From Trichocoleus sp. (lineage in GTDB: Bacteria > Cyanobacteriota > Cyanobacteriia > Elainellales > Elainellaceae), in NCBI GenBank assembly GCA_036702865.1, contig DATNQD010000067.1, positions 62,001-126,000 of the forward strand: a stretch of 64,000 nucleotides of DNA, given 5' to 3'. The notes below the pieces were generated by a model, which did no database searches, was not told the origin of the DNA, and worked only from the letters and a program-made list of their open reading frames with translations. Below, piece by piece: positions 233-64,000 of the stretch (position 1 is the stretch's first letter; each line of letters starts with the position of its first letter). The translations under genes were made by a program, and so were the position numbers.

Positions 233-398
233 TGCCTGCTTCCCTAGTCTGAGTAATAATTAAAGTCCGGTTTCCTGACCAAGTAACTGTACTTTATGGC
301 TTAGGATAGAGAATGTCTTGATAAAAGGGTTTCAGGAATTTGATTCAGCAGGCTCTAGGAACCTGGGGAAGTATGGGCGCATGGGGAACGGAAGGGGC

Positions 399-806: not shown

Positions 807-868
807 GCACCGATCAGCAGCTAAGCTTGCCTTTCTCAATTCGCAGTTTTGTTTGGAGTATTAATGAC

Positions 869-1717: not shown

Positions 1718-2594
1718 TCCTGCTTCGATCGATTCGCACGTTCAGCCTGATAGCCCCAAGCCAAATAGCCCTGCCAAAACAGGGACAGCCTCCTGGGTCA
1801 AGGGTGCTCTGATTGGGTTTGTTATTCTTTATCTCGGCTTAGTTTTGTTTATTCCGGCGCTCAATGTCTTCGTTCAGGCATTTACCGGGGGCATGGGCGG
1901 ATTTTTCAACACCTTCAGCGATCGAGCCTTTCTAAATGCAGTCAAGCTCACCTTGCTTATGGCATTCATTGCTGTTCCGGTGAATACTGTCTTTGGGCTT
2001 TGTGCTGCCTGGGTGATCGCGCGTCATCGTTTCCGCGGACGTACCTTGCTGCTAAGCATTCTCGACCTGCCATTTGCGATTTCGCCAGTTGTAGCGGGAC
2101 TGATGCTCGTCCTGCTTTATGGACGAAACGGCTGGTTTGGTCCCCTGCTTGGATCTGCCGATATCAAAATTATTTTTGCTGCTCCTGGCATGATCCTGGC
2201 AACTGCCTTTGTCTCATTACCTTTTGTGGCAAGAGAGGTCATCCCCGTTCTAGAAGAGGTGGGACCAGAGCAAGAAGAAGCAGCCAAAACCCTTGGTGCA
2301 AAAGATTGGCAAATTTTCTGGCGAGTCACTCTGCCAAATATCCGTTGGGGGTTGTTGTACGGTGTTCTGCTGACCAATGCAAGGGCGATGGGTGAGTTTG
2401 GAGCGGTTTCCGTTGTTTCTGGCAATATTGCAGGCAGAACACAAACCCTACCGCTTTATGTAGAAGAAGCCTATAAGCAATACCATACGCAGGCTGCCTA
2501 CACTGCTGCAACCCTGTTGGCATGCTTGGCGGTTGTCACGCTCATTCTCAAGGAAATTCTGGAGCGCAGAACAGGAAGGCGAGGAGCCGCTTAG
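1707..2594 (+). CDS. cysW: sulfate ABC transporter permease CysW
   Basis: Second permease of the sulfate importer, 295 residues, partner of CysT in the heterodimeric membrane channel. Visible signatures are the EAA loop ([20 protein letters not shown]), the segment [19 protein letters not shown] and the C-terminal [12 protein letters not shown], all typical of CysW. The ATG at 1707 overlaps the end of cysT and was preferred over the ATG at 1671, which would put 12 extra residues inside the cysT frame. The next gene is on the opposite strand, so cysA, commonly found nearby, is absent here. Confidence 0.93.
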
Positions 2595-2691
2595 GTTGCT
2601 AATTTCGTTGCTAGTTTCGTTTCAGGACAGGTAATAAGGACAGGAATGAGGGGTGCTCGCTTTCTGCGTCTCCCTTTGTTCCTCTGCACCA

Positions 2692-3861: not shown

Positions 3862-4011
3862 CCCTCATTGTAAAAGTGAACAGGCTTCTCGGATAATCTT
3901 TGGCGAATGTAATACTAATACAGCCTAATACAGCCTTCAGATCCCCAAAACTGGGGAATTTTAAGCTGTTACCAAGAAATTAGCCGCAAAAACAGCTCTA
4001 ACGATGACGGA

Positions 4012-45980: not shown

Positions 45981-46053
45981 GCTGGTGTAGCTCAGTTGGT
46001 AGAGCAGCTGATTTGTAATCAGCCGGTCGCAGGTTCGAGTCCCGTCACCAGCT
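45981..46053 (+). tRNA. trnT-UGU: tRNA-Thr (UGU)
   Basis: 73 bases with acceptor arms GCTGGTG and CACCAGC pairing fully. The D arm is GCTC/GAGC. The anticodon stem GCTGA/TCAGC encloses the loop TTTGTAA, giving anticodon TGT. The T arm contains GGTTCGAGTCC. No CCA is encoded. The gene is intact although a transposon end begins six bases beyond it, and the middle of this gene is the target of the element's own guide RNA. Confidence 0.97.
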
Positions 46054-46058
46054 TTTTT

Positions 46059-46190
46059 TGTACATTCGCACATTAAATGTCGCTATTCGCACATTAGTGT
46101 CGTTTAAGTTCTATTTCCTTGTAAGGTTAGCCTGTTTCGCACATTAATGTCGTTATAAATGGAATTCCTTATATTCGCACATTAATGTCG
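46059..46190 (+). repeat. transposon end with four TnsB-type repeats
   Basis: After the terminal TGTACA, the core TTCGCACATTA followed by ATGTCG or GTGTCG occurs four times: 46064-46082, 46085-46102, 46135-46152 and 46173-46190. Repeats of about 18 bases in this arrangement are typical TnsB binding sites of Tn7-like elements. The first copy has one extra A. Confidence 0.9.
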
Positions 46191-46222
46191 TTTTAGATGC
46201 TCAAATCGAGTCTTTGCAGCCA

Positions 46223-46257
46223 ATTACAAATCAGCTGCTCCTTTCAGTCCTCCATCT
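46223..46257 (-). CRISPR. delocalised homing crRNA unit targeting tRNA-Thr
   Basis: On the minus strand a shortened repeat (AGATGGAGGACTGAAAG, 46241-46257) is followed by a guide that starts GAGCAGCTGATTTGTAAT (46223-46240). These 18 bases are identical to 46002-46019 inside the tRNA-Thr gene, after which the match stops. The bases before the target are GTA (45999-46001), fitting the GTN PAM of V-K systems. From the first target base to the transposon end is 57 bases, close to the insertion distances reported for V-K elements. Truncated repeat-spacer units that direct homing to tRNA genes are known for this class. Confidence 0.92.
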
Positions 46258-46273
46258 ACAAGCAATCGTACTT

Positions 46274-46290
46274 GCTTATAGACTATAAGC
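46274..46290. repeat. perfect palindrome between array and homing crRNA
   Basis: GCTTATAG and CTATAAGC flank one central A. A second overlapping pair, TTGCTTA (46272-46278) and TAAGCAA (46293-46299), allows an alternative hairpin. It lies between the last degenerate repeat and the homing unit. It may be a processing, terminator or protein-binding element. Confidence 0.5.
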
Positions 46291-46317
46291 TTTAAGCAAA
46301 TCTAGGTTGTAGGGCAG

Positions 46318-46504
46318 CTTCAGCGCGCCAATTCTGGGAAGATTGATTGCGACTGCTACATACAATAATTCGATCTCGCTTCCAGAAGATTTGTCTTTCA
46401 GTCCGCCCATCTCTGGGAGGCTGATTGCGACGATAGTAGCGAACTTCAGTGATGCTCATGTATGTCTCTTTCAGTCCGCCCATCTCTGGGAGGCTGATGG
46501 CGAC
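46318..46504 (-). CRISPR. type V-K CRISPR array, two full repeats plus a degenerate one
   Basis: Read on the minus strand, 37-base repeats occur at 46468-46504 and 46395-46431. They differ at one position near the 5' end (GTCGCC or GTCGCA) and end GGCGGACTGAAAG. A degenerate terminal copy is at 46318-46353. Spacers are 36 bases (46432-46467) and about 41 bases (46354-46394). The GAAAG repeat end and the position downstream of cas12k and tracrRNA are those of V-K systems. The spacer targets cannot be identified here. Confidence 0.93.
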
Positions 46505-46704
46505 TCCCAGCGCCAGAATCCTTGTATCATCTACTTCTCTAGAACGGAATTTCCAAAGCTCGATCGCTTTTTGCAATAAGTCATGTCTAGTTGCAATAAC
46601 AACTGTTGCTCTAAGGCAATAAAAACTTTGAAATGTAGATGTTAAAAGAATTCCAAGGGTTTTGGCGAACCTCCTAGGATTTTTGCCCTTGCTTTGGTTT
46701 GCCA

Positions 46705-47020
46705 AAAATATTGGAGGACTCCTCCTTGCTCGGAGGCAGTTCATAGCCACCACTACAGAACTAGGCTGTACCTTCATCACTGAAGGCTAGGATCACTTCT
46801 GCTGGGCGCGCACCTGCGTTACATTGAAAGAGCAACTCTTATCAACGCAACTTCCCATCCCCATCAGTTGTTCACGAGCGAACAACGACCAAGATGGCAG
46901 TCAGTGACCGGGCAGCTATGCAGGGGCGGAAAGCACGATCGTGAACAACGATCAAACTGACCCCTCATTTTTCACAATTCAGCGGTTTAGAGAACATGAA
47001 CTGCGGCGCTGTTGTTCCAC
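46705..47020 (-). ncRNA. type V-K tracrRNA
   Basis: Lies between the cas12k stop and the array, on the same strand. It begins near AACAGCGCCGCAGTTCATG and contains AAAATGAGGGGTCAGTTTGA and TCTGTAGTGGTGGCTA. It ends with CTGCCTCCGAGCAAGGAGGA followed by the anti-repeat AGTCCTCCA (46712-46720). These blocks and their order match the V-K tracrRNA as I remember it from the Scytonema element. The anti-repeat pairs with the 3' part of the repeats. The exact ends are estimates. Confidence 0.85.
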
Positions 47021-47060
47021 ATATTAACTTGTCTAGGTTCAGTCGTACTACCTCGATCGC

Positions 47061-48986
47061 TTAATTCGAGGAAACTTGTCGAAAATGATAGGCAGCGATC
47101 GCTACATCTCTCGCCTTCTCCTGTGGGGTTCCTTGGCGGGATTGAGCAATTGTTTCAATCGCCAGTCCTAACTTGTTTGCCTGAGAACTAATCGTGGAGA
47201 GAAGCCGATCGTAGCTCCAGCGGTGAATGCTGATGCGAACCTGCTTGGCGTACTTATCCTGTACCTCTTTAGAATCTGATTTCCGTTCAGCCTTAGCATT
47301 AATCTCAGCCGCTAGATGCTCCCGCAAATTCTGGGTATGAGGCAGGACAATACTACCTGCCTGAAATTGTTTCGCTAGTTCGATAACAGATTTTGCTAGC
47401 AAGCGATCGACATACTGCCCCAGTTCAGATTCTGAGGGTTGGCGAGTGTAGCCTTTCGTTTGGTTTTTATACCGTTTCAATGTGTTGTTTTGCTGTTGCT
47501 GTCGCTGACGATTCAACAATCGATAATTGTCACCTAACAATTGACGAGTGCTACGATAAGCGAGAACTTGACCTGTTCTAACGTTAACAACAGCAGCCGT
47601 TATTGGCTGAACCAATCCAATACTGACTCCTATCAAAACATCTAATTGTCCCTGGTAACAGGGCTTACCCTGACGTTCAGAAAGAGCTTGTAAGCGTATC
47701 AGGCTGGACTGCTGGCGCTTGATGTACGCCTGTTGATCTTTAGTGAGTTCTTCTGATGCTTTAGTGTCTGCTAACTGATTGCTCAAACGGTTGATTCCTT
47801 CCTGCCGGAGCCGTTCCGTTCCTTCAGCCGTTAATAAACAAGTATCTATCGTGCAATGTAAGGTGAGATGATTGGCTTGCCAGGGTTCCCTCTCTTTTTG
47901 GTTCCCCTGCCAGCCCAACATCCCTGTCTTGAATAGAAATAGCCCAGTAGGGTAGGTATTTTTATTGGCTTGATAAGTTTGCCAATCTGCTAAAAATCGT
48001 TGAAAAAAAGGAAGTTGGCGTTGGTCACAGTAAACCTGCAGGGGATTCTGTTTCAGGTCGGGAATTGCTTTATCAAGTCCGTTAAAGGCGACACAAATCC
48101 GTCCCTTATTGTTTGTTGACCAGCGTAGATCAGTTTGGCTACCAAAAATAATTGGGTAGGGTAAAGTTGCGGGTTTTGCTAGTAATTTTGCCTGCCAGAG
48201 CATCTGCTCAATTTCATCATCTGGAACTTTGCCAGTAGCGATCGACAAGGTTTCTAAAAATTCTTCACCTGTGAGATCGCGTCCTTTAGGCAATCGACTG
48301 ACTAATTGCGCTTCGAGGCGCTCAATTTCTTTTTGCTTGCGCTGAATCCGTTGAACGAATGCATCTGAGTCTTCCTCCTGTTCGCACACTTGACATTCAT
48401 TTTTGAGTAAGTGAGCGATCGCACAACGATTCAAGACATCTTCTGTCGCATCATACGCTTGAAACAGTAATTTCATCAGATTGCCGTTGGCTTCCGACTT
48501 CTGTTTCTTCTTACGTTTCTGTTTAGGTGGGTTTTGTTCGGTAGCAATCTGAGCATTGAGTTGTTCTAAAATTTCTCTGGCTCTGTCTCGAATTGCCTGA
48601 ATGTTACAACCACTAATTTGGACTAATTCAGCATCGCTTTTGACAGTATTAAGCCAGCGTTGCTTTCCATCTAGACGCTGACGACGTTTGCGCTGCAATG
48701 CTAACCAGGATTTATAGGTGTACGTCACCATTAAACTGGCTGAGGTATAGAAACGTCCTGGCTGCCCTTCAAATTCAGGCTGCGTTTTGAATGGTTCACA
48801 TAGTTCGCGGACTGGTTTGTCTGGCACTGTACCAATTCGCTGCCAAGTCTCAAAGTCTCTATGTTGGCTGACGCGCTTTAGGAGTTCGTTCACAAGAGGA
48901 GTATTTCTATCTGCCATCAGATCCCAAAGCTGTCGTCGAATCTTTTCACTGGCAACAAGACGGCATTGAATGGTGATGAAACTCAT
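47061..48986 (-). CDS. cas12k: Cas12k, RNA-guided targeting subunit of a V-K CAST
   Basis: 641 residues, the normal Cas12k size. The N-terminus ITIQCRLVASEKIRRQLWDL and the segments LMADRNTPLVNELL, SRLPKGRDLT, FNGLDKAIPD, KQLLGDNY-like RQLLGDNYRLLNRQRQQQQ, ELGQYVDRLLAK and RISIHRWSYDRL are characteristic. The RuvC-I position reads LIGVSIGL, with Ser where active nucleases have Asp, so it binds but does not cut DNA. With tracrRNA and crRNA it directs TnsC and TnsB to the target. It is transcribed toward the tracrRNA and array and is divergent from an HTH gene. The frame is intact. Confidence 0.96.
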   Translation of the reverse strand: MSFITIQCRLVASEKIRRQLWDLMADRNTPLVNELLKRVSQHRDFETWQRIGTVPDKPVRELCEPFKTQPEFEGQPGRFYTSASLMVTYTYKSWLALQRKRRQRLDGKQRWLNTVKSDAELVQISGCNIQAIRDRAREILEQLNAQIATEQNPPKQKRKKKQKSEANGNLMKLLFQAYDATEDVLNRCAIAHLLKNECQVCEQEEDSDAFVQRIQRKQKEIERLEAQLVSRLPKGRDLTGEEFLETLSIATGKVPDDEIEQMLWQAKLLAKPATLPYPIIFGSQTDLRWSTNNKGRICVAFNGLDKAIPDLKQNPLQVYCDQRQLPFFQRFLADWQTYQANKNTYPTGLFLFKTGMLGWQGNQKEREPWQANHLTLHCTIDTCLLTAEGTERLRQEGINRLSNQLADTKASEELTKDQQAYIKRQQSSLIRLQALSERQGKPCYQGQLDVLIGVSIGLVQPITAAVVNVRTGQVLAYRSTRQLLGDNYRLLNRQRQQQQNNTLKRYKNQTKGYTRQPSESELGQYVDRLLAKSVIELAKQFQAGSIVLPHTQNLREHLAAEINAKAERKSDSKEVQDKYAKQVRISIHRWSYDRLLSTISSQANKLGLAIETIAQSRQGTPQEKARDVAIAAYHFRQVSSN

Positions 48987-49126
48987 AAAGAAGCACCTAG
49001 AGGTTTGCAGGAGGAGCTAGGGTAGGAGGTTAAAAAATGCAGTTGTTGAAGTTTTCATAGAGGAAATAGTACACAAGTTCTAAAAACGTAGAACTATGAT
49101 AATCTAAAAACTTGTCAAAATGACAA
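48987..49126. promoter_or_regulatory. divergent cas12k/regulator promoter region with inverted repeats
   Basis: About 135 bases separate the two start codons. AGTTCT/AGAACT (49076-49081 and 49090-49095) form a perfect inverted repeat with an 8-base spacer. TTGTCA-AAA-TGACAA (49112-49126) is another, lying across the regulator's ATG. Both are candidate operators for the adjacent HTH protein. Confidence 0.55.
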
Positions 49127-49461
49127 ACAACTTGACTATGACTCTTGCCCTTCGATCGCCCACTCGTAGACACTGGAAGGCGTTAGAAGCGTACCTTCAG
49201 CCTGTGCAGGGTAAACGAATGAAAGTTGAGGAGTTTCTAGAGATCTGGAATGTGTCACGGGAGGAACTGGCATTCATCTGTGATTGTTCGGTCACAACAG
49301 TAAATCACTGGTTCTCGCAAGGAGACCATCGTCGAGTACCGACCGAGAAGCATAAGCAGCGGTTGGCACTAGCTCATCATATTTGGATAACAGTAGAGAC
49401 AGAACCAGAGCATTTGCGGGTGCTGCGGGAACTGTATAACAAGAAGCGACGGAAGCAGTAG
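49120..49461 (+). CDS. small HTH protein, candidate CAST regulator
   Basis: 113 residues. A helix-turn-helix is readable at about residues 36-68 (VEEFLEIWNVSREELAFICD, then CSVTTVNHWFSQGDHRRVPT), with a recognition helix of the TVNHWF type. The rest is helical and ends in a basic RRKQ tail. It is divergent from cas12k, the position used in V-K elements by regulators such as the MerR-type repressor CvkR. This protein does not read as MerR; it looks more like an Xre-like or FIS-like HTH. A second in-frame ATG at 49138 is possible. Repression of cas12k and of itself is inference. Confidence 0.75.
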   Translation: MTNNLTMTLALRSPTRRHWKALEAYLQPVQGKRMKVEEFLEIWNVSREELAFICDCSVTTVNHWFSQGDHRRVPTEKHKQRLALAHHIWITVETEPEHLRVLRELYNKKRRKQ

Positions 49462-50393: not shown

Positions 50394-50577
50394 GGTTGAG
50401 TTGCCTCGTATTGGTTGATGAATCCAGTAAAAGATTTGGGGGATCTGAGAAATCAAGGACAGTGAAAACTCTATGAAATGCGTTGATCTTTAAGGGATAG
50501 GACGATTTTGGGGAGTGCGTTCAGTTTATTCCACCGAAACTTGCCCCGAAACTTTTTGCTCATCTGCCGATTACTCT

Positions 50578-53500
50578 ATGCCTAGTCTATCGAAAAAATC
50601 CTATGGTTCTGAAGTTCAAGCGCGGGTTAAGTACCTGTTGCAAGTGCTGCTAGAGGGAGTAGCAGAGGAACGAGAACTGAAACGGGACGTGGATTTGAAG
50701 TGGAGCTGGTCAGAGGATGACAAAACGCTGACTCTCGAAACTACTTTGCGATCGCTGGTGCTGTTGGCTTACCCTGATCTAGCGACGAACACAGATGAAT
50801 TTAAGTCGGCAAAATCAAAGGCGAGGGAGTCGTTAATTGATTTGCGAGATTATGTCGGGATTCTAAACGATCATCGAATCCAAAAACGGGGTTCGGAAAA
50901 GTGGCATTTTTCGCTGCGGCTCTGGGGGCAGGATATCCAGCGGAACCTAGCTGAGTTTGACAAATTGTGGGAAAGCAAGCGATCGCCTGCTTCTAAGCCA
51001 AAGCTAGTACCAGAGACACAAACCAAGTTTCCCCTCAAACCCGGTGCACCTTTTCCTAAAGTGCGATTGCCGGACAACTTTGTGCCCCGACCGAATGCCT
51101 TGAAGGCGGTGAAAGAGAAACTATTGGCAGAAGACGATCGAACGCTGGTAGTGAGTGCGATCGCGGGTCTAGGAGGATTGGGGAAATCAGTGCTGGCAAC
51201 AGCATTAGTGCTCGATCCAGAAGTGCAGGCGCGATTTGCAGATGGGATGTTATGGGTGACGGTGGGGCAAAAGCCCGATTTGCAGACGCTCTTGGGAGAC
51301 TGGATTCGGGAGCTAGATAAGTCGCGAGAGAGCTTTTCGGCAACGACACTAGAGTCAGCTTCAAGCTATTTGCATAATCTGCTGGTAGAGCGACAGATGC
51401 TGTTGGTTGTAGATGATGTCTGGAATGCTGCTCATGCCGAGTGGTTCCGAGTTGGTGGTGCAGGCTGCCGGGTGTTGGTGACGACAAGGGAGGCGCAAAT
51501 TGAGGGCGCAGACTATCACCAACTGGATTTGATGTCAGAAGCAGAGGCGATCGATCTCGTACAGAAGAAGTTAGGACGACAATGGCGATCGGAACAAGAA
51601 GCGGAGGTCAAAGCGTTTGCAAAAGTGCTGGGGTATTTGCCCCTAGCGTTGGATTTAGCAGCAAACCAGGTGAGGGATGGGTTGAGTTGGGAGGAACTGC
51701 GATCGGAGTTTGAGGCAGAGCGAAGATCGGTGGCATTGGGGACAGGAAGGCGATCGAGCGCATTAAAGCTGTTGGATTCCTGTGAGAAATGGGATGACCT
51801 GGATGAGAATCAGCAGCGCAAGTACAGTTTGCAGGCTTGTTTTAATTTGAGCTTGAAGCGGCTCAACCCAGAGCAATTACAGCAATTTGCTTGGTTGGGA
51901 GTGTTGCCAGAAGATGTGAACCTGAACAAGCAGATAGCCTCGGTGTTGTGGGATGTTTCTTTAGTGATAGCAAAGCGAGCCTTGGTGCTATTGCGGAATC
52001 GATCGTTTCTTATTGAGGGGGGAGCAACCATTGAAGACGAACCAACTTATCGCGTTCACGACCTAATGCACGATATGGCGCGTAGCCTAGTTGAAGAAGG
52101 CATTCTCCAATCTGTAACCCAAATTGCAGACCGCAAATTACAAAACTTGGCTTTGGCACATCAACAATTTCTGGAACGCTATCGAACCTGTGCTGTCGAT
52201 GCTCGCTGGGATAGGTTGCCGAACGATAGCTATATTTATCGCCATTTAACTTGGCACATGGAGCAAGCGGACTGGGTAGATGAAGTTCATGCACTAATGG
52301 CAATGAGTGATGCTCAGGGACGCAATGCCTGGTTTGAAGCATGTGACCGAATTGGGCAACCTGCCATTTTTATAGAGGATGTGGCACGGGGATGGAGACT
52401 GGCAGAGCAAGGGTATGAGCAAGACCGAACTGGAGCAATCGTGCTGCAATGTCGCTATGCACTGATTACGGCAACGCTGAATAGTTTGCTTGAGAATTTG
52501 CCGACCGACATGATGGCAGAGTTTGTGAAGCGTGAGTTTTGGACGGTAGACCAGGCTTGGGCGTATGTGGAACAGATGCAGAATGAAACCAAGATTGCTG
52601 AAGCAATTCAAGTGTTGGCACTAAATTTGTCAAAGGCATTGTTTCAAGTTGCAGTCGGTAAAGCTCGGGTAATTCAATCGGAGTCCAGTCGGGCCTGGGT
52701 GTTGCGTGAGTTGGCGAAGCTGGATGCAGCTTACTTCTCTGAGGCGTTGGATGCAGCTCGGGCAATTCAATCGGAGTCCAGCCGGGCAGAAGTGTTGAGT
52801 GAGTTGGCGAAGCTGGATGCAGCTGATTTCTTTGCCTTGTTGGATGCAGCTCGGGCAATTCAATCGGAGTCCAGCCGGGCAAAAGTGTTGCGTGAGTTGG
52901 CGAAGCTGGATACAGCTTACTTCTCTGAGGCGTTGGATGCAGCTCGGGCAATTCAAAATGAGTCTAGTCGGGCAAGGGTGTTGAGTGAGTTGGCGAAGCT
53001 GGATGCAGCTTACTTCTCTGAGGCGTTGGATGCAGCTCGGGCAATTCAAAATGAGTCTAGTCGGGCAAGGGTGTTGAGTGAGTTGGCGAAGCTGGATGCA
53101 GCTGATTTCTCTGCCTTGTTGGATGCAGCTCGGGCAATTCAAGATGAGTCCAGCCGGGCAAGGGTGTTGAGTGAGTTGGCGAAGCTGGATGCAGCTTACT
53201 TCTCTGAGGCGTTGGATGCAGCTCGGGTAATTCAGGATGAGTCCAGCCGGGCAGAGGTGTTGAGTGAGTTGGCGAAGTTGGATGCAGCTTACTTCTCTGA
53301 GGCGTTGGATGCAGCTCGGGTAATTCAGGATGAGTCCAGTCGGGCAGAAGTGTTGAGTGAGTTGGCGAAGCTGGATACAGCTGATTTCTCTGCCTTGTTG
53401 GATGCAGCTCGGGCAATTCAAGATGAGTACAGTCGGGCCTGGGTGTTGCGTGAGTTGGCGAAGCTGGATGCAGCTTACTTCTCTGAGGCGTTGGATGCAG

Positions 53501-54585
53501 CTCGGGCAATTCAAAATGAGTCTAGTCGGGCAAGGGTGTTGAGTGAGTTGGCGAAGCTGGATGCAGCTGACTTCTCTGCCTTGTTGGATGCAGCTCGGGC
53601 AATTCAAGATGAGTCCAGCCGGGCAAGGGTGTTGAGTGAGTTGGCGAAGCTGGATGCAGCTGACTTCTCTGCGTTGTTGGATGCAGCTCGGGCAATTCAA
53701 GATGAGTCCAGCCGGGCAAGGGTGTTGAGTGAGTTGGCGAAGCTGGATACAGCTGATTTCTCTGCCTTGTTGGATGCAGCTCGGGTAATTCAAGATGAGT
53801 CCAGTCGGGCAAAAGTGTTGAGTGAGTTGGCGAAGCTGGATGCAGCTTACTTCTCTGAGGCGTTGGATGCAGCTTGGGTAATTCAAGATGAGTCCAGCCG
53901 GGCAGAAGTGTTGAGTGAGTTGGCGAAGCTGGATGCAGCTTACTTCTCTGAGGCGTTGGATGCAGCTCGGGCAATTCAAGATGAGTCCAACCGGGCAGAG
54001 GTGTTGCGTGAGTTGGCGAAGTTGGATGCAGCTGATTTCTCTGCCTTATTGGATGCAGCTCGGGCAATTCAAGATGAGTCCAGCCGGGCAGAGGTATTGC
54101 GTGAGTTGGCGAAGCTGGATGCAGTTGATTTCTCTGCCTTGTTGGATGCAGCTCGGGCAATTCAAGATGAGTACAGTCGGGCAGAGGTGTTGAGTGAGTT
54201 GGCGAAGCTGGATGCAGCTTACTTCTCTGAGGCGTTGGATGCAGCTCGGGTAATTCAAGATGAGTCCAGCCGGGCAGGGGTGTTGAGTGAGCTCGCGAAA
54301 CTAACTTCACAAGATTCTCTACCGCGCATTTGGGAGGCGATGTTATGCCTTAGCCATAAACCTACTCGCGCTCGATCTCTCAGCAGCTCCCTCTCACATT
54401 TCTCCCTCTCCACACTGCCACTCTCCAACTGGCAAGCTTATTTGCATCTCCTTGCCACCCGTCGGCGTCCAGACCTAATGCAAGACCTCTCTACCCTTCA
54501 TCCTGCTATTGTCCATCTTGGTGGTGAAGCCGCAATGCCTGGTGTTGTCCGTGCCATGCGTGAGGTTTGTGAGCAGTGGAAGTAG
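50578..54585 (+). CDS. NB-ARC STAND ATPase with 31-residue repeat sensor
   Basis: 1335 residues from the ATG at 50578; a GTG at 50515 is an alternative start. Residues 10-120 form an unassigned N-terminal domain (KRDVDLKWSWSEDDKTLTLE, ending KWHFSLRLW). The NB-ARC module has P-loop GLGGLGKS (197-204), Walker B MLLVVDDVWN, the TTRE sensor, LPLALDLAANQ and an MHD-like VHDLMHDMA. Residues from about 700 contain 17 tandem units of the form LDAA(D/Y)FS(A/E)(L/A)LDAAR ... LSELAK. A short unique C-terminus follows. STAND proteins of this build act as sensors that assemble on binding a ligand; in bacteria several are antiviral. The effector is not recognised. Confidence 0.9.
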   Translation: MPSLSKKSYGSEVQARVKYLLQVLLEGVAEERELKRDVDLKWSWSEDDKTLTLETTLRSLVLLAYPDLATNTDEFKSAKSKARESLIDLRDYVGILNDHRIQKRGSEKWHFSLRLWGQDIQRNLAEFDKLWESKRSPASKPKLVPETQTKFPLKPGAPFPKVRLPDNFVPRPNALKAVKEKLLAEDDRTLVVSAIAGLGGLGKSVLATALVLDPEVQARFADGMLWVTVGQKPDLQTLLGDWIRELDKSRESFSATTLESASSYLHNLLVERQMLLVVDDVWNAAHAEWFRVGGAGCRVLVTTREAQIEGADYHQLDLMSEAEAIDLVQKKLGRQWRSEQEAEVKAFAKVLGYLPLALDLAANQVRDGLSWEELRSEFEAERRSVALGTGRRSSALKLLDSCEKWDDLDENQQRKYSLQACFNLSLKRLNPEQLQQFAWLGVLPEDVNLNKQIASVLWDVSLVIAKRALVLLRNRSFLIEGGATIEDEPTYRVHDLMHDMARSLVEEGILQSVTQIADRKLQNLALAHQQFLERYRTCAVDARWDRLPNDSYIYRHLTWHMEQADWVDEVHALMAMSDAQGRNAWFEACDRIGQPAIFIEDVARGWRLAEQGYEQDRTGAIVLQCRYALITATLNSLLENLPTDMMAEFVKREFWTVDQAWAYVEQMQNETKIAEAIQVLALNLSKALFQVAVGKARVIQSESSRAWVLRELAKLDAAYFSEALDAARAIQSESSRAEVLSELAKLDAADFFALLDAARAIQSESSRAKVLRELAKLDTAYFSEALDAARAIQNESSRARVLSELAKLDAAYFSEALDAARAIQNESSRARVLSELAKLDAADFSALLDAARAIQDESSRARVLSELAKLDAAYFSEALDAARVIQDESSRAEVLSELAKLDAAYFSEALDAARVIQDESSRAEVLSELAKLDTADFSALLDAARAIQDEYSRAWVLRELAKLDAAYFSEALDAARAIQNESSRARVLSELAKLDAADFSALLDAARAIQDESSRARVLSELAKLDAADFSALLDAARAIQDESSRARVLSELAKLDTADFSALLDAARVIQDESSRAKVLSELAKLDAAYFSEALDAAWVIQDESSRAEVLSELAKLDAAYFSEALDAARAIQDESNRAEVLRELAKLDAADFSALLDAARAIQDESSRAEVLRELAKLDAVDFSALLDAARAIQDEYSRAEVLSELAKLDAAYFSEALDAARVIQDESSRAGVLSELAKLTSQDSLPRIWEAMLCLSHKPTRARSLSSSLSHFSLSTLPLSNWQAYLHLLATRRRPDLMQDLSTLHPAIVHLGGEAAMPGVVRAMREVCEQWK
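52720..54300 (+). repeat. 17 tandem 93-bp units within the NB-ARC gene
   Basis: Exactly 17 in-frame units of 93 bp (31 codons), with a partial unit just before. Two versions alternate irregularly: one with AYFSEALDAA, one with ADFSALLDAA. Most neighbouring units differ at only a few bases, which points to recent amplification or gene conversion. The antisense frames stay open through the array because of the repetition and are not genes. Confidence 0.95.
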
Positions 54586-55951: not shown

Positions 55952-58900
55952 CTACTCCTTTTCCCACACATACTTTCGGCACACCTCACAAGCTGCTCGT
56001 GCCTCTTCTGACTGCGGTTCTAGGAAGTAAGGATGATAGCGGATACGGTTACAGCAAATTACTAACCAGTCCTCCCAAGTGTTCCATTCCCATAAGCGAA
56101 TTGTCCGATCTTGACTGCCACTAGCGATTAGCTTACCGTCTGGGCTAAAAGCTACTGATGTAACCCAATCACCATGCTTTTGAAGGGGCTGCCAAACTAG
56201 ATTACCCTCAAGATCCCATAAGCGAATGGTGCAATCAGCACTACCACTGACGATCAACTTGCTATCAGGACTAAATGCCACTGATGTGACAAAGCTCTCA
56301 TGCCCCTGAAAAGGTTCTCCAAGCTGCTTGCTGCTTAAGTCCCACAAACGAATCGTCCGGTCATCGCTACCACTGACAATCATTTCGCCATTAGGGCTAA
56401 GTGCTACCGAATTGATCGCTAATTCATGCCCCTCCAAGGGTTGCCCGATCGAGTTGCCTTCAAGATCCCATAAGCGAATGGTTCGGTCTTGACTGCCACT
56501 GACAATCATCTTGCTATCTGGGCTAAACCCTACCGACAAAATAGGGTCTGTGTGTCCCTCAAAAGGTTGTCCAATCTGATGACCCTCGAGATTCCACAAC
56601 CTAATTGTTTGATCGTAACTACCACTGGCGATCGTCCTGCCATCTGGACTAAACGCCACTGACCAGAGAGGATTTTGATGTCCTGCAAAGGGTTGTGCAA
56701 TCAAATTATCCTGAATGTCCCATAACCAGATTAGTGTGCCGCGACCAGCACGAATAATCCTTCTGCCATCTGGACTCAAGGCAATCGAGCGGGACTCACC
56801 GTCAGGTCCCATTTGGGCTTGTCCAATTAAATTTCCCTGCAAATCCCAAAGCCGAACTATTCCATCCTCACTGTTACTTGCAATCGTTTTGCTATCGGGA
56901 GAAAAAGCAACTGAGAAAATTGCACTTTCATGTTTAATCCTAAGTTGGTCGATCTCGCTGCCTTTTGCATTCCACAAGCGAACTGTATTGTCTGTACCAC
57001 CGCTAACGAGCATTTGGCTGTCGGGGCTGAATGCTACAGAAGTGACAGACGCTTCGTTCCCCAGAAATGGTTGTCCAATTTGGTTGCCTTCCAGATCCCA
57101 CAACCGAATAGTTCGATCTTCACTGCCACTAGCAACTCGCCTGCCGTCAGGACTAATTATTACAGAATAAACATAGCCTTCATGCCCTCGAAACGGTTGT
57201 CCGATTCGATTACCCTTTAAATCCCAGAGGCAAATTGTTTTATCATCACTGCCACTGATAATCGTCTGTCCATCGGGGCTGAATGTTACAGAAGTGAAAG
57301 GGGCTTCGCCCTCCTGAAACAGATTTCCAGTTGAACTATCCTGCAAATCCCACAAACGAATTGTTTTATCATTGCTACCACTAACAATCGTCTTGCCATC
57401 AGGACTAAACGCTACTGCTCTCACAGAATCTTCATGCCCCTGAAACGGTTCTCTAATCGGATTGCCCTGCAAATCCCACAAACGAACTGTATTGTCATTT
57501 CCGCCACTGACAATCGTCTTGCCATCAGGACTAAACGCTACTGATCGAACATAACCTTCATGTCCCTGAAAGGGCTGTCCAATCGCATTACCCTGCAAAT
57601 CCCACAAGCGAACTGTATTGTCATTTCCGCCACTGACAATCATCCTACCGTTAGGGCTAAATGCTACCGATCGAACATAGCCTTCATGTCCCTGAAACGG
57701 TTGTCCGATTAAATTGCTCCACAAGTCCCATAAACAAATTGTTTTATCCTGACTGCCACTAACAATCATCTTGCCATCGGGGCTAAATGCCACCGAAGTT
57801 ACAGGGTTTTTATGCCTTTTGAAGCAATTACACTCTCGTGCATTGTTCATCACTTGATGCAAACTCTGCTGAACAGTTTCTAAAAGGCATTTGTCTGTCT
57901 TCTCCAGGTTTAACTTAACTAGATGAAGAGAAATGGCTAAAGCCTCGATAGGCTGGCGCTGTAAAAGTTTGATTACTTCGTTTGCTCGTGCATTTAGGGC
58001 TCCCTCTGTCTTAGCCCAAATAATGGCAGATTCCCGTTCCCGCTCTCTTATTTCACTAAGCTGGTAAAACTCCTGTAATGCAGGGGTAAGGTAACGTTGT
58101 AAATTTTCACTCTGGACTTCGAGCTGGATTAACAACCCTTTGGGTAATAGGAAGTTAACATTCCGCTGATGCTGCTTCCATTCCCGCCGGGCATCTTCCA
58201 TTCGATCGACCAATCGTCGCACCTCTCGATCGGTTTTGCGCCACTCGGCAAATCTTTTCCATCCGTCTAGTAATGCCTCGTGAGCTAAGTCGATCCAAGG
58301 CTCTGAGTTAGCTTGTTCCTGTCCTGTCACTAGCAATCGTCCTTGCACCAAGCCGCCGTCATCATCGATCAGATCTCGCACAATGTCTTCGTTGAGATTA
58401 TTGACACTTGCTGGCAATAACTCTGTTTTGGGTCGCCGTTGTCGGGTATCCTTTTCTGCCTCTCCGGTTCGCACCAGTCGTAAAAAGATTCGTTTGATCC
58501 ATTCCTGTTCTGATTCACTTCGTTGTTGCGTTGGCAATTCTCGTTCAAAGTCTCGATAGTGATAGACTTTCTCAACGTGGAAATTTAACGCTCCTGTCAA
58601 TTCTCCCAACTTTTCATACTGCTCCAGGGTCAGCCGCTTCTGTTCAGTGTCTCGCTGCTGCCAAAGTTTAGTAAGAGCAAATTCTAATAAGGGTAGAAAT
58701 CCTGGTTCTTTCCCCACGTCTTCTTGAATCTTGAAGAGCAATTTGTCTTCAATGCCATATCCTTGGCGTTTAGCAGGCTCAACGATCGCATCTCGTAAAT
58801 CAATCCCGCTTAAAGGTGGCATGAACACTGCTTGCGACTGAATCAGTTGATGTAAAGCTGGATAGCGCAAACAAGGCTCCAGAAAATCAGCTCGCATTGT

Positions 58901-60193
58901 TGTCACGACCGTGAAACGCGCATCAGCAAGTTCTACCACTCCAGTAAGCAAGTCAATGAATCGCTGCCGATCGCCCTCATCAGGACAGAGTGTAAACACT
59001 TCCTCAAACTGATCGACCACTAATAGAAAACGATCGGCTTGTTCCAGATCAGAATTAGCTGTTGCATTGGAGAGTCGATCGACTAAAGCAGGTAACGGAT
59101 TTGGCTCACTTTTAATCAGCTGATGGAGTTTCTGAATCTCTTTAGAACGTTTGAAGTATGGCTCAAAGATGGTTCTAAGGGCTGTTAGTGGATCAAATCC
59201 TGGTTTGATGGCTGGAAGAATCTGCCATCCTGTCTCGGCTAACCAGGGCATCAGCCCAGCTCGTACCACAGATGATTTGCCACTCCCTGATGCGCCAATT
59301 ACCGGAACAAAAGGCTGTTGCTCTAATCGCTGCCGGATATCCTCAACTATGCGCTGTCTTCCAAAGAAGAACGCTTGCTGCACTGCGGTGAATGCCTGCA
59401 GTCCCTGATATGGGCAGATTGGCTCACCTGTTTCATCCACGATCGCCTCAACTGTTTTCTGCTGAGGTTGATAGCTTAGCAGTGTAATCAAGCCGCCATA
59501 ACCCATGCGGATTGGCTCTTGTCCGCTGCCCTTCAACTCTCTGGCAATGCACTCGAAGAGGCGATCGCCTGTCACCTGTCCATCGTCATTCGCGTTTGTC
59601 TGCGACAAGCCTGTTAATAGCGCTCCTGTGAAGATGCTGTGCTGCTCTCGTTTGATCGCATATGCCTGCTCGAATCCTCGACAAGCCGTGATCAGGTAAT
59701 AGTCTTTGTGAGTGCTGAAAGCGGTGAAGGTTTTCTCGACCAAGCTGCGTTCTAGAAAATCGCCGCTATGGCAGGAATCAAACAGTATTACTAGACTACT
59801 TAGCTGTGACTCTTGAATCAGGGCATTCAGGCTATCGAGGGGAACTGCCCGTCGTGCCTCAATCACTTGCTTGCCTTCCAGAGTGACGATCGTATCAGAG
59901 GTGGCGAGATATGCCTTGGGTTTCCCGACTACTGGATCAACAACCGGAATGCCATGACCTGTGAAGTAAATCAGAACATCGTTGTTCTCTGCTCGCTCCA
60001 ACAGCAAGGTTCGCAATGCCTCAATTAGCTTTGTGTTGGTGACTGATCCCTTCAACAGTGTTACGTCTTGAAAGTCACCGAATTGTTTCAGAACAGCCGC
60101 AACCGCTTCTGCATCATTGGCAGGTTTACTCAACGACTTAAGGGGAGCTTGATATTCTGAAATACCGACGACCAGAGCATAGCAACGAGCCAT
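55952..60193 (-). CDS. caspase-like peptidase fused to STAND NTPase and WD40 propellers
   Basis: 1413 residues from the ATG at 60193, where the caspase fold starts (ARCYALVVGISEYQ); the frame extends to 60253. The peptidase C14 domain (about 1-240) has catalytic His80 (YFTGHG) and Cys141 (LFDSCHSGDF). The NTPase (about 262-600) has P-loop GASGSGKSS at 300-308 and Walker B LLVVDQFEEVF. A helical region leads to 14 WD40 repeats in the C-terminal 600 residues (FQGHEGYVRSVAFSPDG style), enough for two seven-bladed propellers; the ninth is divergent. Such metacaspase-STAND-WD40 proteins are proposed to act in regulated death or immunity: the propellers sense, the NTPase switches, the protease acts. 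It is divergent from a trypsin-co-occurring-domain gene. Confidence 0.93.
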   Translation of the reverse strand: MARCYALVVGISEYQAPLKSLSKPANDAEAVAAVLKQFGDFQDVTLLKGSVTNTKLIEALRTLLLERAENNDVLIYFTGHGIPVVDPVVGKPKAYLATSDTIVTLEGKQVIEARRAVPLDSLNALIQESQLSSLVILFDSCHSGDFLERSLVEKTFTAFSTHKDYYLITACRGFEQAYAIKREQHSIFTGALLTGLSQTNANDDGQVTGDRLFECIARELKGSGQEPIRMGYGGLITLLSYQPQQKTVEAIVDETGEPICPYQGLQAFTAVQQAFFFGRQRIVEDIRQRLEQQPFVPVIGASGSGKSSVVRAGLMPWLAETGWQILPAIKPGFDPLTALRTIFEPYFKRSKEIQKLHQLIKSEPNPLPALVDRLSNATANSDLEQADRFLLVVDQFEEVFTLCPDEGDRQRFIDLLTGVVELADARFTVVTTMRADFLEPCLRYPALHQLIQSQAVFMPPLSGIDLRDAIVEPAKRQGYGIEDKLLFKIQEDVGKEPGFLPLLEFALTKLWQQRDTEQKRLTLEQYEKLGELTGALNFHVEKVYHYRDFERELPTQQRSESEQEWIKRIFLRLVRTGEAEKDTRQRRPKTELLPASVNNLNEDIVRDLIDDDGGLVQGRLLVTGQEQANSEPWIDLAHEALLDGWKRFAEWRKTDREVRRLVDRMEDARREWKQHQRNVNFLLPKGLLIQLEVQSENLQRYLTPALQEFYQLSEIRERERESAIIWAKTEGALNARANEVIKLLQRQPIEALAISLHLVKLNLEKTDKCLLETVQQSLHQVMNNARECNCFKRHKNPVTSVAFSPDGKMIVSGSQDKTICLWDLWSNLIGQPFQGHEGYVRSVAFSPNGRMIVSGGNDNTVRLWDLQGNAIGQPFQGHEGYVRSVAFSPDGKTIVSGGNDNTVRLWDLQGNPIREPFQGHEDSVRAVAFSPDGKTIVSGSNDKTIRLWDLQDSSTGNLFQEGEAPFTSVTFSPDGQTIISGSDDKTICLWDLKGNRIGQPFRGHEGYVYSVIISPDGRRVASGSEDRTIRLWDLEGNQIGQPFLGNEASVTSVAFSPDSQMLVSGGTDNTVRLWNAKGSEIDQLRIKHESAIFSVAFSPDSKTIASNSEDGIVRLWDLQGNLIGQAQMGPDGESRSIALSPDGRRIIRAGRGTLIWLWDIQDNLIAQPFAGHQNPLWSVAFSPDGRTIASGSYDQTIRLWNLEGHQIGQPFEGHTDPILSVGFSPDSKMIVSGSQDRTIRLWDLEGNSIGQPLEGHELAINSVALSPNGEMIVSGSDDRTIRLWDLSSKQLGEPFQGHESFVTSVAFSPDSKLIVSGSADCTIRLWDLEGNLVWQPLQKHGDWVTSVAFSPDGKLIASGSQDRTIRLWEWNTWEDWLVICCNRIRYHPYFLEPQSEEARAACEVCRKYVWEKE

Positions 60194-60271
60194 GAGATTA
60201 AATGTGATGGACCTTGGCGCAAATAGGCAAGTTAAGCAATACAATAGCCTCAAATTCCTCTGAGGTCATTC

Positions 60272-60670
60272 ATGTCTGACGTGCAATCCCTTTTTCTTCA
60301 GGATGAAGACGGTACTACCTACACTATGTACATTGAGTCCAAAGTTCCTGAAGTGCTGCCGCCCGATCTGCCGCCACCGGGAGAAGTGGATGATGATGAG
60401 CGGGAATCAATGGGGATTACTGAAGATACCGTTGCCAAACTCAAAGAGATTCACGGCACGATTCGTGCCTATGCCTGGTATGCGATCGGCGCATTCAAGA
60501 ATTTTGGCGGTGCTGAAATTGAAGAGATGAACCTGAAGTTTGGATTGAAGATTGGCGGCAAAACGGGAGTGCCGATCGTCACTGAAGGCTCTGCTGAGGC
60601 AAACTTTGAAATCTCAGTTAAATGCAAATTCCCAGTGAAATTAGAACCTCAGCGACCACCACAGAGTTAA
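60272..60670 (+). CDS. trypsin-co-occurring domain 1 (CU044_2847-like) protein
   Basis: 132 residues. An N-terminal strand region (DGTTYTMYIESK), a Pro-rich loop, then a helix (AKLKEIHGTIRAYAWYAIGA) and the conserved closing strands EIEEMNLKFGLKIGGKTG and EANFEISVKCKF. This is the pattern of the trypco1 family, described in NTP-dependent conflict systems beside proteases and STAND NTPases. It lies 78 bases from the caspase gene start, divergent, and ends 8 bases from the stop of the second WD40 gene. It is probably an adaptor that links an effector to its activator. Confidence 0.8.
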   Translation: MSDVQSLFLQDEDGTTYTMYIESKVPEVLPPDLPPPGEVDDDERESMGITEDTVAKLKEIHGTIRAYAWYAIGAFKNFGGAEIEEMNLKFGLKIGGKTGVPIVTEGSAEANFEISVKCKFPVKLEPQRPPQS

Positions 60671-60678
60671 TAACTATT

Positions 60679-63600
60679 TCATTCCTTAGCTCTCACAATC
60701 CCGCTACATAAATGGCGGTCTACTTCCTCTATATTGGGATTCGTTCGCAAATAATCTTGTACCCAACTACACCCTTGGTCAATCAAACCCTCAAAATCCA
60801 ATGTTGTAGCATTCCAAAGTTTAATGAGGTTGTCTGTACTAGCAGAAGCAAGAACTCTTCCATCGGGACTAAAGCTCACGCTATTGACTTCCGAGCTATG
60901 TCCTTCAAGAGTTTTTAACTCTTGTCCCTTCAAATTCCACAATTTGATTGTCTTATCACCACTACCAGACGCGATCGTTTGGCCATCAGGACTGAAGCTT
61001 ACACAATATACTGAACCCGTATGTCCCTCTACAGTTTTGAGTTCCTGACCCCTTAAGTCCCACAACTTAATAGTTTTGTCCATACTAGCGGAAGCAATCA
61101 TTTTCCCATCAGGACTGAAGGTAACCATATTTACTCTTCCAGAATGTCCTACTAGAGTCTTCAACTCTCGTCCATCTATACTCCACAACTTGATAGTTCT
61201 ATCTACGCTGGCAGAAGCAAACACTTCTCCACTAGAACTAAAGCTAACTCCAAGTACACCTTCATGATGTCCTTTCAGTACATGTAGCTCTTGGCCCTGT
61301 AAGTTCCAAACTCTCAAGGTTTTATCCCAACTAGCAGAGACGATAATATCTCCAACAGGGCTAAAGCTAACACTTCTGCCCCACTCATTATGCCCAGTAA
61401 AAGTTTTGAGTTCCTGCCCTTTTAAGCTCCAAAGTTTAATTGTTGTGTCATTACTAATAGAAGCAATGACTTTCCCATCTGGGCTAAAGCTAATGTCTCT
61501 AACCCACCCATCATGACCTACAAGAGTTTCTATTTCCTTTCCCTCTCGTGTCCAGAGCTTGATGGTATTGTCATGTCCAGCAGACGCAATAGTTTTGCCA
61601 TCTGGGCTAAACCTCACAGAGATGACATCATTAGTGTGCCCTTTGAGAGTATTGAGCTCCTGACTAACTGTACTCCATAGCCTGATAGTTCCATCACCAC
61701 TTGCAGAAACAAGCGTTTTGTCATCAGGACTGAAATTAACACTACTGACCCAATCACTGTGTCCCTTGAAAGTTTTAATTTCTTGACCATTTAAGTTCCA
61801 AACTTTAATCATCGTGTCACCACTTGAAGAGGCAACCATTGTTCCATCAGGACTGAAGCTAACATCCATGATCCAGCCAGTATGTCCTTTAAGTAATTGC
61901 AGTTCTTCACCTTCCATACTGAAGATTTTTACCGTTCTGTTATTTCCTCCAGAAGCAATATGTTTTCCATTGGGGCTAAATTTGACACTCTTAACACAAT
62001 CCTTGTGTGCTAGTGTGTTCAATTGCCGACCATTCAGATCCCACAATTTGACCGTTTTATCTTCACTTGCAGAGGCAAGAATTTTTCCTCCAGGGTGAAA
62101 GGCTATGCGGTTAATCCAAGAGTCATGTCCTTTGAAGCTCTTTAGTCTCTGACCCTCTAGATTCCAAAGTTTAATCGATCCATCCCAGCTAGCGGAGACA
62201 AGCATTGTACCTTTCGGGTTAAAACAAATGCTTACAACTACACTTTCATCACTGAAAAACGTAATTTCTTGTCCAGTTAAATCCCAAAGTCGGATAGTAC
62301 TGTCACTACCTGCGGAGGCAAGCATCTTTCCGTCTGGGCTAAAACAAATGCTATTGATTACAGCATTATGTCCTCTAAACGTCTTAATATCACACCCATC
62401 TATCTTCCAGAGCTTGATCATGCCTGAATATCCAGCAGAAGCAATCATTGTTCCATCTGGATTAAAACAAACGCTTCTAACCGTATCGTTATGCCCTTCT
62501 AAACGGTTGTATTCGCTTACGCTATAGATTGCGCGTTGCAGTGTTAATCTTACTTGTTCCTTAATCTTGCTATTTACCCAAGTTGCTTTGCTCAATCGGT
62601 TTACAGCTTTAAGAGAATCCAATAGGGCATCGAACTCCTTACTTATAGCAAGTAGGGATTCTGAGGATTTACAAAGGGAGCGGATTTCAAGCTGCTCAAC
62701 TTCAACTTGACGCTGTTCAGCTTTAGTGAGTGCTTGTTGAAGTTGAGCAATCCGATCTTTTTCGTGGGCATCACTGCGCTGCCAGAAGGGTTCATCCTTG
62801 CCAAAGTCTTGCAAGTAAGGAACCAACGCTTCCCATTGCTCACGCACTTCCGCCAGCAAGCCACCCATCATCAGGTTGCGGTCCTTCTCCGCTGGTGTCA
62901 GGCTGGGATTCTGCTGGTCTTTCTCCCACTCCAATCGTGCCGCTTCTAACCGTTGGCTCAACCGCCGCAGTTCCCGGCTTTCCTGACACCAGTCATCTAA
63001 CCGTTTCCAACCTTTGATCAACGCCTCATGCGCCAAATCGACCGTCTCCCGCTCCGAAACTAACAACCGTCCTTTAATCAAGCTTTCCAGCACCAGCCCA
63101 ATTTGCTGATGCGCCTCCAGTGTCTCCCCTGCCACTGCGATCAGGGTTGATCGCAGTTGGCGTTGTCGCGTATCTTTCTCTGCCTCACTCGTCCTCACTA
63201 GTCGCAGCAGGATTGCCCGTATCCAGTCTTGCTCAGATTGCGAGCGATTCTGCTGAGCAGACAGATTTATCTCGCCTGTATCAGGGTCAATGTAATCACA
63301 GCAGGTGTAAATTTGCTCGGCATGGGAATTGAGCGCACCCACCAGTTTGCCGATCGCCCAATAGCTATCTAACGTCAACTGGTGCGTCTGTTCATCTCGC
63401 GGCTCCCAAAGCTTTGTCAGCGCAAATTGCAACAACGGCAGAAATCCTGGCTCCTCGCGGGTATCTTTGACGATCTCGGCCAGCAGATCGGAAGTTAGAG
63501 AATAGCCCTGTTTAGCAGCAGGTTTGGCGATCGCATCCGTTAGGTCTGCCCCTGTTAATTGCGATAGATAAAGACCTTGATCTTGAATCAAGGTCTTTAA

Positions 63601-64000
63601 TGACTCGTAGCACAGGCAACTCTCGACAAAATCTGCCCGCATTGTGATCACCACTGTTAACTGCGAGTTAGGAATAGCGTTGACTTGAGTGATGAGGTGA
63701 ATGAAACGCGATCGTTCCTCCTCATCTAGACAGACCGTAAACACCTCCTCAAATTGATCCACCACCAGCAGAAACCTCATCCCTTCTGGTATTTGCTCAA
63801 TCAATGATTTCACCCCCTCTGGTGCCTTCCGGATGAGCGTACCGAGTTGCACTTTGCCTGGAATCTGCCGCACCAGTTCCTCTAGCGGTTGTCGCAATTG
63901 AGCCAATGGCTCCTCTCCTGGTTTTATCGGCTCCAGTACAGTCCAATTCGTGCCGCTTTGCTTCAAAGCTGGAATTAACCCTGCCCGTACGAGCGACGAC
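60679..64000 (-). CDS. STAND NTPase with 14 WD40 repeats, N-terminus outside window
   Basis: At least 1100 residues; the frame remains open to the window edge, so the true start lies beyond 64000. The first visible residues, SSLVRAGLIPAL, are the end of a P-loop helix, showing that the effector domain and Walker A motif are cut off. Walker B is FLLVVDQFEEVFTV. The NTPase C-terminal helices are followed by 14 WD40 repeats (FKGHSDWVSSVNFSPDD style), again two propellers. The layout parallels the caspase gene at 55952-60193, but the propeller sequences are clearly different. The missing N-terminus could be a caspase, a trypsin or another effector. Confidence 0.92.
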   Translation of the reverse strand, partial: SSLVRAGLIPALKQSGTNWTVLEPIKPGEEPLAQLRQPLEELVRQIPGKVQLGTLIRKAPEGVKSLIEQIPEGMRFLLVVDQFEEVFTVCLDEEERSRFIHLITQVNAIPNSQLTVVITMRADFVESCLCYESLKTLIQDQGLYLSQLTGADLTDAIAKPAAKQGYSLTSDLLAEIVKDTREEPGFLPLLQFALTKLWEPRDEQTHQLTLDSYWAIGKLVGALNSHAEQIYTCCDYIDPDTGEINLSAQQNRSQSEQDWIRAILLRLVRTSEAEKDTRQRQLRSTLIAVAGETLEAHQQIGLVLESLIKGRLLVSERETVDLAHEALIKGWKRLDDWCQESRELRRLSQRLEAARLEWEKDQQNPSLTPAEKDRNLMMGGLLAEVREQWEALVPYLQDFGKDEPFWQRSDAHEKDRIAQLQQALTKAEQRQVEVEQLEIRSLCKSSESLLAISKEFDALLDSLKAVNRLSKATWVNSKIKEQVRLTLQRAIYSVSEYNRLEGHNDTVRSVCFNPDGTMIASAGYSGMIKLWKIDGCDIKTFRGHNAVINSICFSPDGKMLASAGSDSTIRLWDLTGQEITFFSDESVVVSICFNPKGTMLVSASWDGSIKLWNLEGQRLKSFKGHDSWINRIAFHPGGKILASASEDKTVKLWDLNGRQLNTLAHKDCVKSVKFSPNGKHIASGGNNRTVKIFSMEGEELQLLKGHTGWIMDVSFSPDGTMVASSSGDTMIKVWNLNGQEIKTFKGHSDWVSSVNFSPDDKTLVSASGDGTIRLWSTVSQELNTLKGHTNDVISVRFSPDGKTIASAGHDNTIKLWTREGKEIETLVGHDGWVRDISFSPDGKVIASISNDTTIKLWSLKGQELKTFTGHNEWGRSVSFSPVGDIIVSASWDKTLRVWNLQGQELHVLKGHHEGVLGVSFSSSGEVFASASVDRTIKLWSIDGRELKTLVGHSGRVNMVTFSPDGKMIASASMDKTIKLWDLRGQELKTVEGHTGSVYCVSFSPDGQTIASGSGDKTIKLWNLKGQELKTLEGHSSEVNSVSFSPDGRVLASASTDNLIKLWNATTLDFEGLIDQGCSWVQDYLRTNPNIEEVDRHLCSGIVRAKE

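Follow-up and report, generated by a model that had tools for sequence, protein, structure and literature searches.

A type V-K CRISPR-associated transposon beside a tRNA-Thr gene of Trichocoleus sp. and the fit of its homing repeat to the tracrRNA

Results and Discussion

The window analysed here is a stretch of 64,000 nucleotides of Trichocoleus sp. (assembly GCA_036702865.1, contig DATNQD010000067.1, positions 62,001 to 126,000), which belongs to a draft genome of 5.93 Mb in 90 contigs. Beside a tRNA-Thr(UGU) gene it holds one end of a type V-K CRISPR-associated transposon (CAST), together with cas12k, a trans-activating CRISPR RNA (tracrRNA) region, a short array and a guide matching the tRNA gene. 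The contig is called C67 below, and its stretch past the window L024. Homing of type V-K CAST by an anchor spacer or delocalized CRISPR RNA (crRNA) was reportedly described by Saito (2021) and by Hsieh and Peters (2021).

Target, guide and near end

The features on which the reading of the locus depends are the following (PAM, protospacer adjacent motif).

45981..46053, plus strand: tRNA-Thr (UGU), the attachment gene (ARAGORN, anticodon TGT; Rfam tRNA 68.7 bits)
45999..46001, plus strand: PAM GTA, read from the sequence
46002..46019, plus strand: protospacer in tRNA-Thr, by identity to the guide
46059..46199, plus strand: transposon end adjoining the tRNA gene, TGTACA and four TTCGCACATTA repeats
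46223..46240, minus strand: homing guide, 18-nt match
46241..46254, minus strand: truncated repeat R* (TGGAGGACTGAAAG), 14 nt, directly before the guide
46317..46353, minus strand: degenerate array repeat (60% identity over a 43-nt family)
46354..46394, minus strand: array spacer
46395..46431, minus strand: array repeat, 37 nt
46432..46467, minus strand: array spacer
46468..46504, minus strand: array repeat, 37 nt
46686..47026, minus strand: predicted tracrRNA gene, limits inferred
46712..46720, minus strand: tracrRNA anti-repeat AGTCCTCCA
47061..48986, minus strand: cas12k (NF038191 850.9 bits, cut-off 150; Cas12k chains of solved structures E 3e-187)

An initial annotation, made from the letters alone, had described an 18-nt guide identical to part of tRNA-Thr, GTA before the target as PAM and a transposon end 57 bases on, and all three were confirmed. 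The 18-mer at 46002-46019 has a single further copy in the window, the reverse complement at 46223-46240, and no other copy was found there even when 3 mismatches were allowed. In 2000 dinucleotide shuffles of 46200-46520 the longest match to the tRNA was 13 nt. The first base of the end is the T of TGTACA at 46059, which gives the PAM-to-end distance of 57 bases, and the four TTCGCACATTA terminal repeats lie inside 46061-46185. The order tracrRNA, array, cas12k given by the same annotation has to be corrected: inward from the end come the guide unit, the array, the tracrRNA and cas12k.

The tracrRNA region downstream of cas12k is conserved in an alignment of 7 sequences (A2). L130 and L139 fail to align there over the 3' part of the tracrRNA, and the anti-repeats of both are visible in separate readings. 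The gene was taken to start 35 nt beyond the stop codon of cas12k, in analogy to PMC9938897. In the Rfam scan no family matched the tracrRNA region of the window.

Homing units in related elements

Cas12k was found in 98 of the 388 genomes of a class sample (90 above the curated cut-off). Sixty-five loci were compared: 60 fetched from these matches, 4 from a genome scan, and the window. The 60 were picked by hand from the top of the list and are mostly near full length, the weaker matches being left unfetched; contig ends, partial genes and one pair with identical coordinates were passed over. L057 and L140 look like one contig (both 12982 long), and L132 and L133 have identical Cas12k.

A repeat-guide-target unit, that is a short unit after GAAA(G) with a guide matching a target further out, was present in 49 of the 65 loci. 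In thirty-nine units at least 13 nt match exactly next to a GTN PAM, and ten were recognised despite one or two mismatches over 15 nt; the GTN PAM of all 49 is partly due to selection, since GT was required in one search and either GT or a tRNA hit in the other. In 43 cases the target falls inside a tRNA gene called by ARAGORN or no more than a few bases away from one, the tRNAs being of many kinds and five of them tRNA-Thr(UGU). In L138 the first 17 guide bases are as in the window, and its Cas12k is 54.5% identical to that of the window. For 25 of the 49 units a TGTACA end could be identified, 43-66 nt from the PAM. Since the match is exactly 17 nt long in 25 of the 39 exact units, the 18th matching base of the window guide may be chance; the guide-target duplex of the assembled complex is 17 bp according to the review PMC10761935.

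The likeness to published V-K CAST with an anchor spacer or delocalized crRNA is close. As far as the available portions of PMC9938897, PMC11406308, PMC11656645 and PMC12719977 go, these share with the window Cas12k, tracrRNA, array, an R* of about 12 nt and a guide usually of 17 nt. They further share the GTN PAM, the tRNA target, a PAM-to-end spacing of 46-82 nt (PMC9938897, with one exception), within which the 57 nt of the window fall, the small divergent DNA-binding gene and tnsB-tnsC-tniQ on the other side. The window differs by its 18 matching bases and by a divergent gene that is not CvkR, Arc_1 or Arc_2, and its far end is not seen. With such a repeat-guide-target unit in 49 of the 65 loci, the window element is a well-formed member of this known class. 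Its earlier assignment there, homing units at tRNA genes included, thus holds, and the locus is a clean textbook case of homing of a kind already known.

Some units deviate from a perfect match. One mismatch in the first 15 guide positions was seen in L106, L107, L108, L111, L129, L130, L147, L148 and L155, and two in L122. In L140 (G030:C54), the nearest relative with a full-length match, cas12k is 74% identical and carries one internal stop codon.

Fit of the truncated repeat to the tracrRNA anti-repeat

The anti-repeat was located by the hairpin preceding it and not by complementarity, and the nine bases following this hairpin were set against nine from R* and nine from the array repeats. 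Fifty loci were considered (the 49 with a unit and L145), of which 48 were readable, L143 and L148 having no anchor; a first hairpin anchor had covered 33 of the 50. In L106, L120, L130 and L152 of the 48, no array passed the test.

R* forms on average 7.81 of nine Watson-Crick pairs with its own anti-repeat, versus 5.54 with shuffled partners (31 distinct pairs; 0 of 5000 shuffles as high). Among 39 distinct triples R* is the better fit in 32, and still in 27 when G-U pairs are counted. A one-base slide of R* lowers the mean pairing from 8.0 to 3.2 (48 loci). When the loci are grouped by Cas12k (47 of the 48, L119 being too short), R* wins in 26 of 30 clusters at 80% identity, in 12 of 14 at 60% and in 5 of 6 at 50%. 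When only the anti-repeat is considered, the pairing energy of R* is stronger than that of the array repeat in 36 of 44 loci, equal in 2 and weaker in 6; an earlier R*-tracrRNA test on 34 of the 50 loci, in which L145 was read one base off, gave 26, 2 and 6, respectively. In the window all 9 anti-repeat bases form Watson-Crick pairs with R*, and 7 of the 9 pair with the array repeat. By these comparisons the tracrRNA anti-repeat covaries, at the level of sequence, with the short repeat of the homing unit, and they suggest that it fits R* better than the array repeat. With R* fitting at 9 bases and the array repeats at 7, the homing guide may have an advantage over the array guides.

Part of the evidence tells against such a preference. 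The commonest array repeat also pairs with its own anti-repeat above expectation (6.33 vs 5.60 shuffled, 33 distinct pairs, 0 of 5000 as high), thus the arrays track the anti-repeat as well, though less than R*. The array repeat is favoured in 3 of the 39 distinct triples and ties in 4; with G-U pairs it is better in 4 and ties in 8.

Covariation may also exist without preference: R* alone would be so short that the core is seen bare, and the array repeats would compensate by longer pairing. In all 44 loci the 37-nt array repeat with 90 nt of tracrRNA does pair more strongly than the 14-nt core of R*; its mean of -20.6 kcal/mol is like that of the 37-nt stretch ending in R* (-20.0 kcal/mol), and in the window the array repeats have alternative pairings of -15.3 when the whole tracrRNA is taken. 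Against compensation stands position 6 of the anti-repeat, which is paired by R* in 25 of 31 distinct cases through four pair types (A-T, T-A, G-C, C-G) and by array repeats in 9 of 33. Furthermore, self-folding is stronger in the array repeat than in the R* context in 41 of 44 loci (mean -12.3 vs -4.2 kcal/mol). We regard compensation as a serious possibility, somewhat more apt to prove wrong than right. Matching between R* and the tracrRNA is not stated in the portions of PMC11656645, PMC9938897, PMC11406308, PMC12719977, PMC11127173 and PMC10761935 available to us, a set lying outside the main homing papers, so an earlier report is possible.

Transposase genes, far end and reading of the element

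The genes tniQ, tnsC and tnsB follow past the window on the same contig (L024:3025-6291, minus strand), with the cargo between them and the cas12k side. Comparison with known V-K elements, proposed earlier for Cas12k, gave 627 bits for Cas12k against chains of ShCAST, and for TnsB (404 bits), TniQ (194 bits) and TnsC (107 bits) ShCAST chains were the best matches among solved structures. The Pfam TniQ score of 23.9 bits is below the cut-off of 27, and the alignment of TnsB to ShTnsB begins at residue 18.

The element is almost certainly a type V-K CAST that its own guide directed to the protospacer in tRNA-Thr(UGU), with insertion 57 bp beyond the PAM. Cas12k, the tracrRNA region, array, truncated repeat, guide, GTN PAM, end spacing and tnsB/tnsC/tniQ all support the homing reading of the initial annotation; the parts, their spacing and the same rule in relatives are directly observed.

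Several facts pull the other way. Sixteen of the 65 loci gave no unit: L057, L076, L090, L135 and L140 have less than 1.3 kb on that side, ten others yielded nothing, and in L145 repeat and guide are present and the target was not found. Both array spacers of the window remained without a match, in blastn against plasmids and phages and in an exact search of their first 20 nt against viral contigs. An insertion sequence begins 137 bp beyond the start of tnsB and the contig ends within it, leaving the far end unassembled; from the coordinates the element is therefore at least 22 kb long up to that insertion sequence. Target duplications of 9 bp fit other copies of this insertion sequence in three contig pairs (C54-C32, C6-C48, C71-C64), and the 9-bp partner of the C67 flank was absent among the insertion-sequence ends found. 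Pattern searches for the far end recovered the known end in one case and otherwise gave match numbers close to those of reversed-pattern controls; neither the far end nor a target-site duplication was seen. In other genomes the sequence on the 3' side of the tRNA-Thr gene varies; as the 59 genomes scanned besides this one all belong to other genera, the comparison of flanks is no true empty-site test. The guide-target-end trio described before holds, with the near end intact, and the interval contains only one end of an element which continues past the window.

The element may also be a fossil, its near-end anatomy intact and its mobility lost. The insertion sequence upstream of tnsB and the missing far end would agree with this, as would the degenerate third array repeat and the genome's second V-K element with its truncated cas12k. 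On the other hand, cas12k, tnsB, tnsC and tniQ are open (641, 620, 283 and 174 aa) and near the lengths of the ShCAST chains, and we hold the loss of mobility to be quite conceivable, if rather the less probable state. It is very improbable that the 18-nt match is a tRNA fragment which arose by chance or recombination and that something else, e.g. a TnsD-like protein, sited the element: tRNA-Thr 3' fragments do occur away from the gene in these genomes (e.g. L036, C4), but none of the 2000 shuffles reached even 14 nt, the unit stands directly after a repeat remnant with PAM and spacing right, and the same rule recurs in 49 of the 65 loci, 43 of them at a tRNA gene and of many kinds; the shuffles and this recurrence largely contradict it.

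Other V-K remains and tRNA fragments were seen on the way. In the same genome, L025 (G000:C40) 75-4155 is the second V-K element, in which cas12k, cut to 209 aa, stands directly beside tniQ, tnsC and tnsB with no cargo between. In L026 (G000:C4) 141-230 a tRNA-Thr 3' fragment lies beside TGTACATTGACTAATTAG, which resembles a V-K end, and the anticodon arm is doubled as an inverted repeat; C4 was dropped as a carrier of the far end, its TGTACA junction facing the tRNA-Thr 3' fragment wrongly for a duplication. In another genome L036 has, at about 1500-2250, a copy of the 3' part of tRNA-Thr and its flank 610 bp after tRNA-Thr, an arrangement resembling the trace of an element integrating at the anticodon loop.

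Candidate regulator divergent from cas12k

Upstream of cas12k a small gene is transcribed in the opposite direction.

49120..49461, plus strand: small helix-turn-helix-like protein, candidate regulator, divergent from cas12k (relatives beside cas12k)

CvkR, Arc_1 and Arc_2 regulators are described in 86 of 118 V-K systems in PMC9938897, CvkR being MerR-like with 139-185 aa and Arc_1/Arc_2 ribbon-helix-helix proteins of 53-72 aa. The window protein shares with them the divergent position directly upstream of cas12k. Unlike CvkR, it has 113 aa, is helix-turn-helix-like and lacks a MerR model; its length and its low-confidence model with six helices also separate it from Arc_1/Arc_2. By length and domain it is of neither the CvkR nor the Arc type. 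No Pfam model scored above cut-off for it and no MerR model appeared up to E 1; PHROG gave a MerR-like match at E 0.31 only, and the CvkR motif had no match within 2 mismatches in 48901-49200. In the predicted structure (mean predicted local distance difference test score 59.8) there are six helices and no strand of at least 3 residues. Foldseek returned nothing at E 0.001 or better (best a HigBA structure, E 0.53), and no PDB sequence matched in a profile search at an E below 0.75. The protein is therefore called helix-turn-helix-like, a fold modelled at low confidence, and nothing beyond this is claimed.

Relatives stand at the same place in 12 of the 64 other loci (11 of 63 if L057 and L140 are one). 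A profile built from 11 divergent proteins including that of the window, all chosen for their position beside cas12k, gave 27 matches of at least 130 bits in the 388 genomes, 24 of them with cas12k, whole or in part, at a distance of up to about 1 kb. Sixteen of the strong matches lie outside the profile; 13 of these are beside cas12k (12 of 15 without L125, itself found via cas12k) and 3, all from one genus, are away from it. The wider family comprises eight matches of 93-103 bits and many below 62 bits. Two of the eight were fetched and had no cas12k nearby, and none of the eight is on a contig with Cas12k among the matches listed. On a Cas12k tree of 55 rows 3 changes account for the helix-turn-helix label, a count as low as this being reached in 0 of 500 shuffles, thus it occurs in more than one branch; the tree was made by a quick method with the Shimodaira-Hasegawa-like approximate likelihood ratio test only, the labels were assigned by hand, and 10 of the 65 rows are omitted (eight because the sequence read was too short, and L118 and L144 as second copies). 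On listing the intergenic regions, no operator in common with the region upstream of tnsB could be established. Among the titles that literature searches for such a regulator returned, none came closer to this protein, supplements lying outside that scope. A relative of the divergent protein, in L203 2597-3662, has no cas12k nearby, and the gene opposite to it resembles, by eye, the gene opposite cas12k in L128, L132 and L133.

Proposed working of the element

In the homing reading the short unit 46223-46254 would be transcribed, and its R* would pair with the tracrRNA anti-repeat and be loaded. Cas12k would then bind at GTA and the following 17-18 nt of the tRNA gene. Downstream of this site TniQ, TnsC and TnsB would integrate the element, and the tRNA gene would remain whole. 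The divergent protein may repress cas12k, by analogy with CvkR in Anabaena.

A broader proposal takes the pairing and the regulator together. The anti-repeat would be selected to pair with R*, while array repeats would tend to have a central mismatch and to hide the same bases in their own hairpin; pairing with the tracrRNA would rank the guides, chromosomal homing first and mobile targets second; and a fourth, helix-turn-helix type of regulator would serve this element and others in more than one Cas12k branch. We offer this combination tentatively, as a proposal that stands just short of being probable. If it is right, the truncated repeat may be kept because it decides which guide wins the tracrRNA, which is testable. 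Such a ranking would matter for the way these transposons decide between a safe site in the chromosome and a mobile target, and also for the design of guides in V-K tools; the further regulator type would add to how V-K elements stay quiet.

Cargo genes

Between cas12k and the transposase genes the window holds the following cargo.

50515..54585, plus strand: EAD4-NB-ARC protein with a long repeat region (Pfam)
55952..60253, minus strand: caspase-like protein with WD40-type repeats (open reading frame; PADLOC caspase model; WD40 by eye)
60272..60670, plus strand: Trypco1-domain protein (Pfam)
60679..63966, minus strand: second caspase-like/WD40-type protein, its start past the window at L024:2897 (PADLOC caspase model)

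The C-terminal half of the EAD4-NB-ARC protein consists of many near-identical repeats of the ELAKLDAADFSALLDAARAIQDESSRARVL type.

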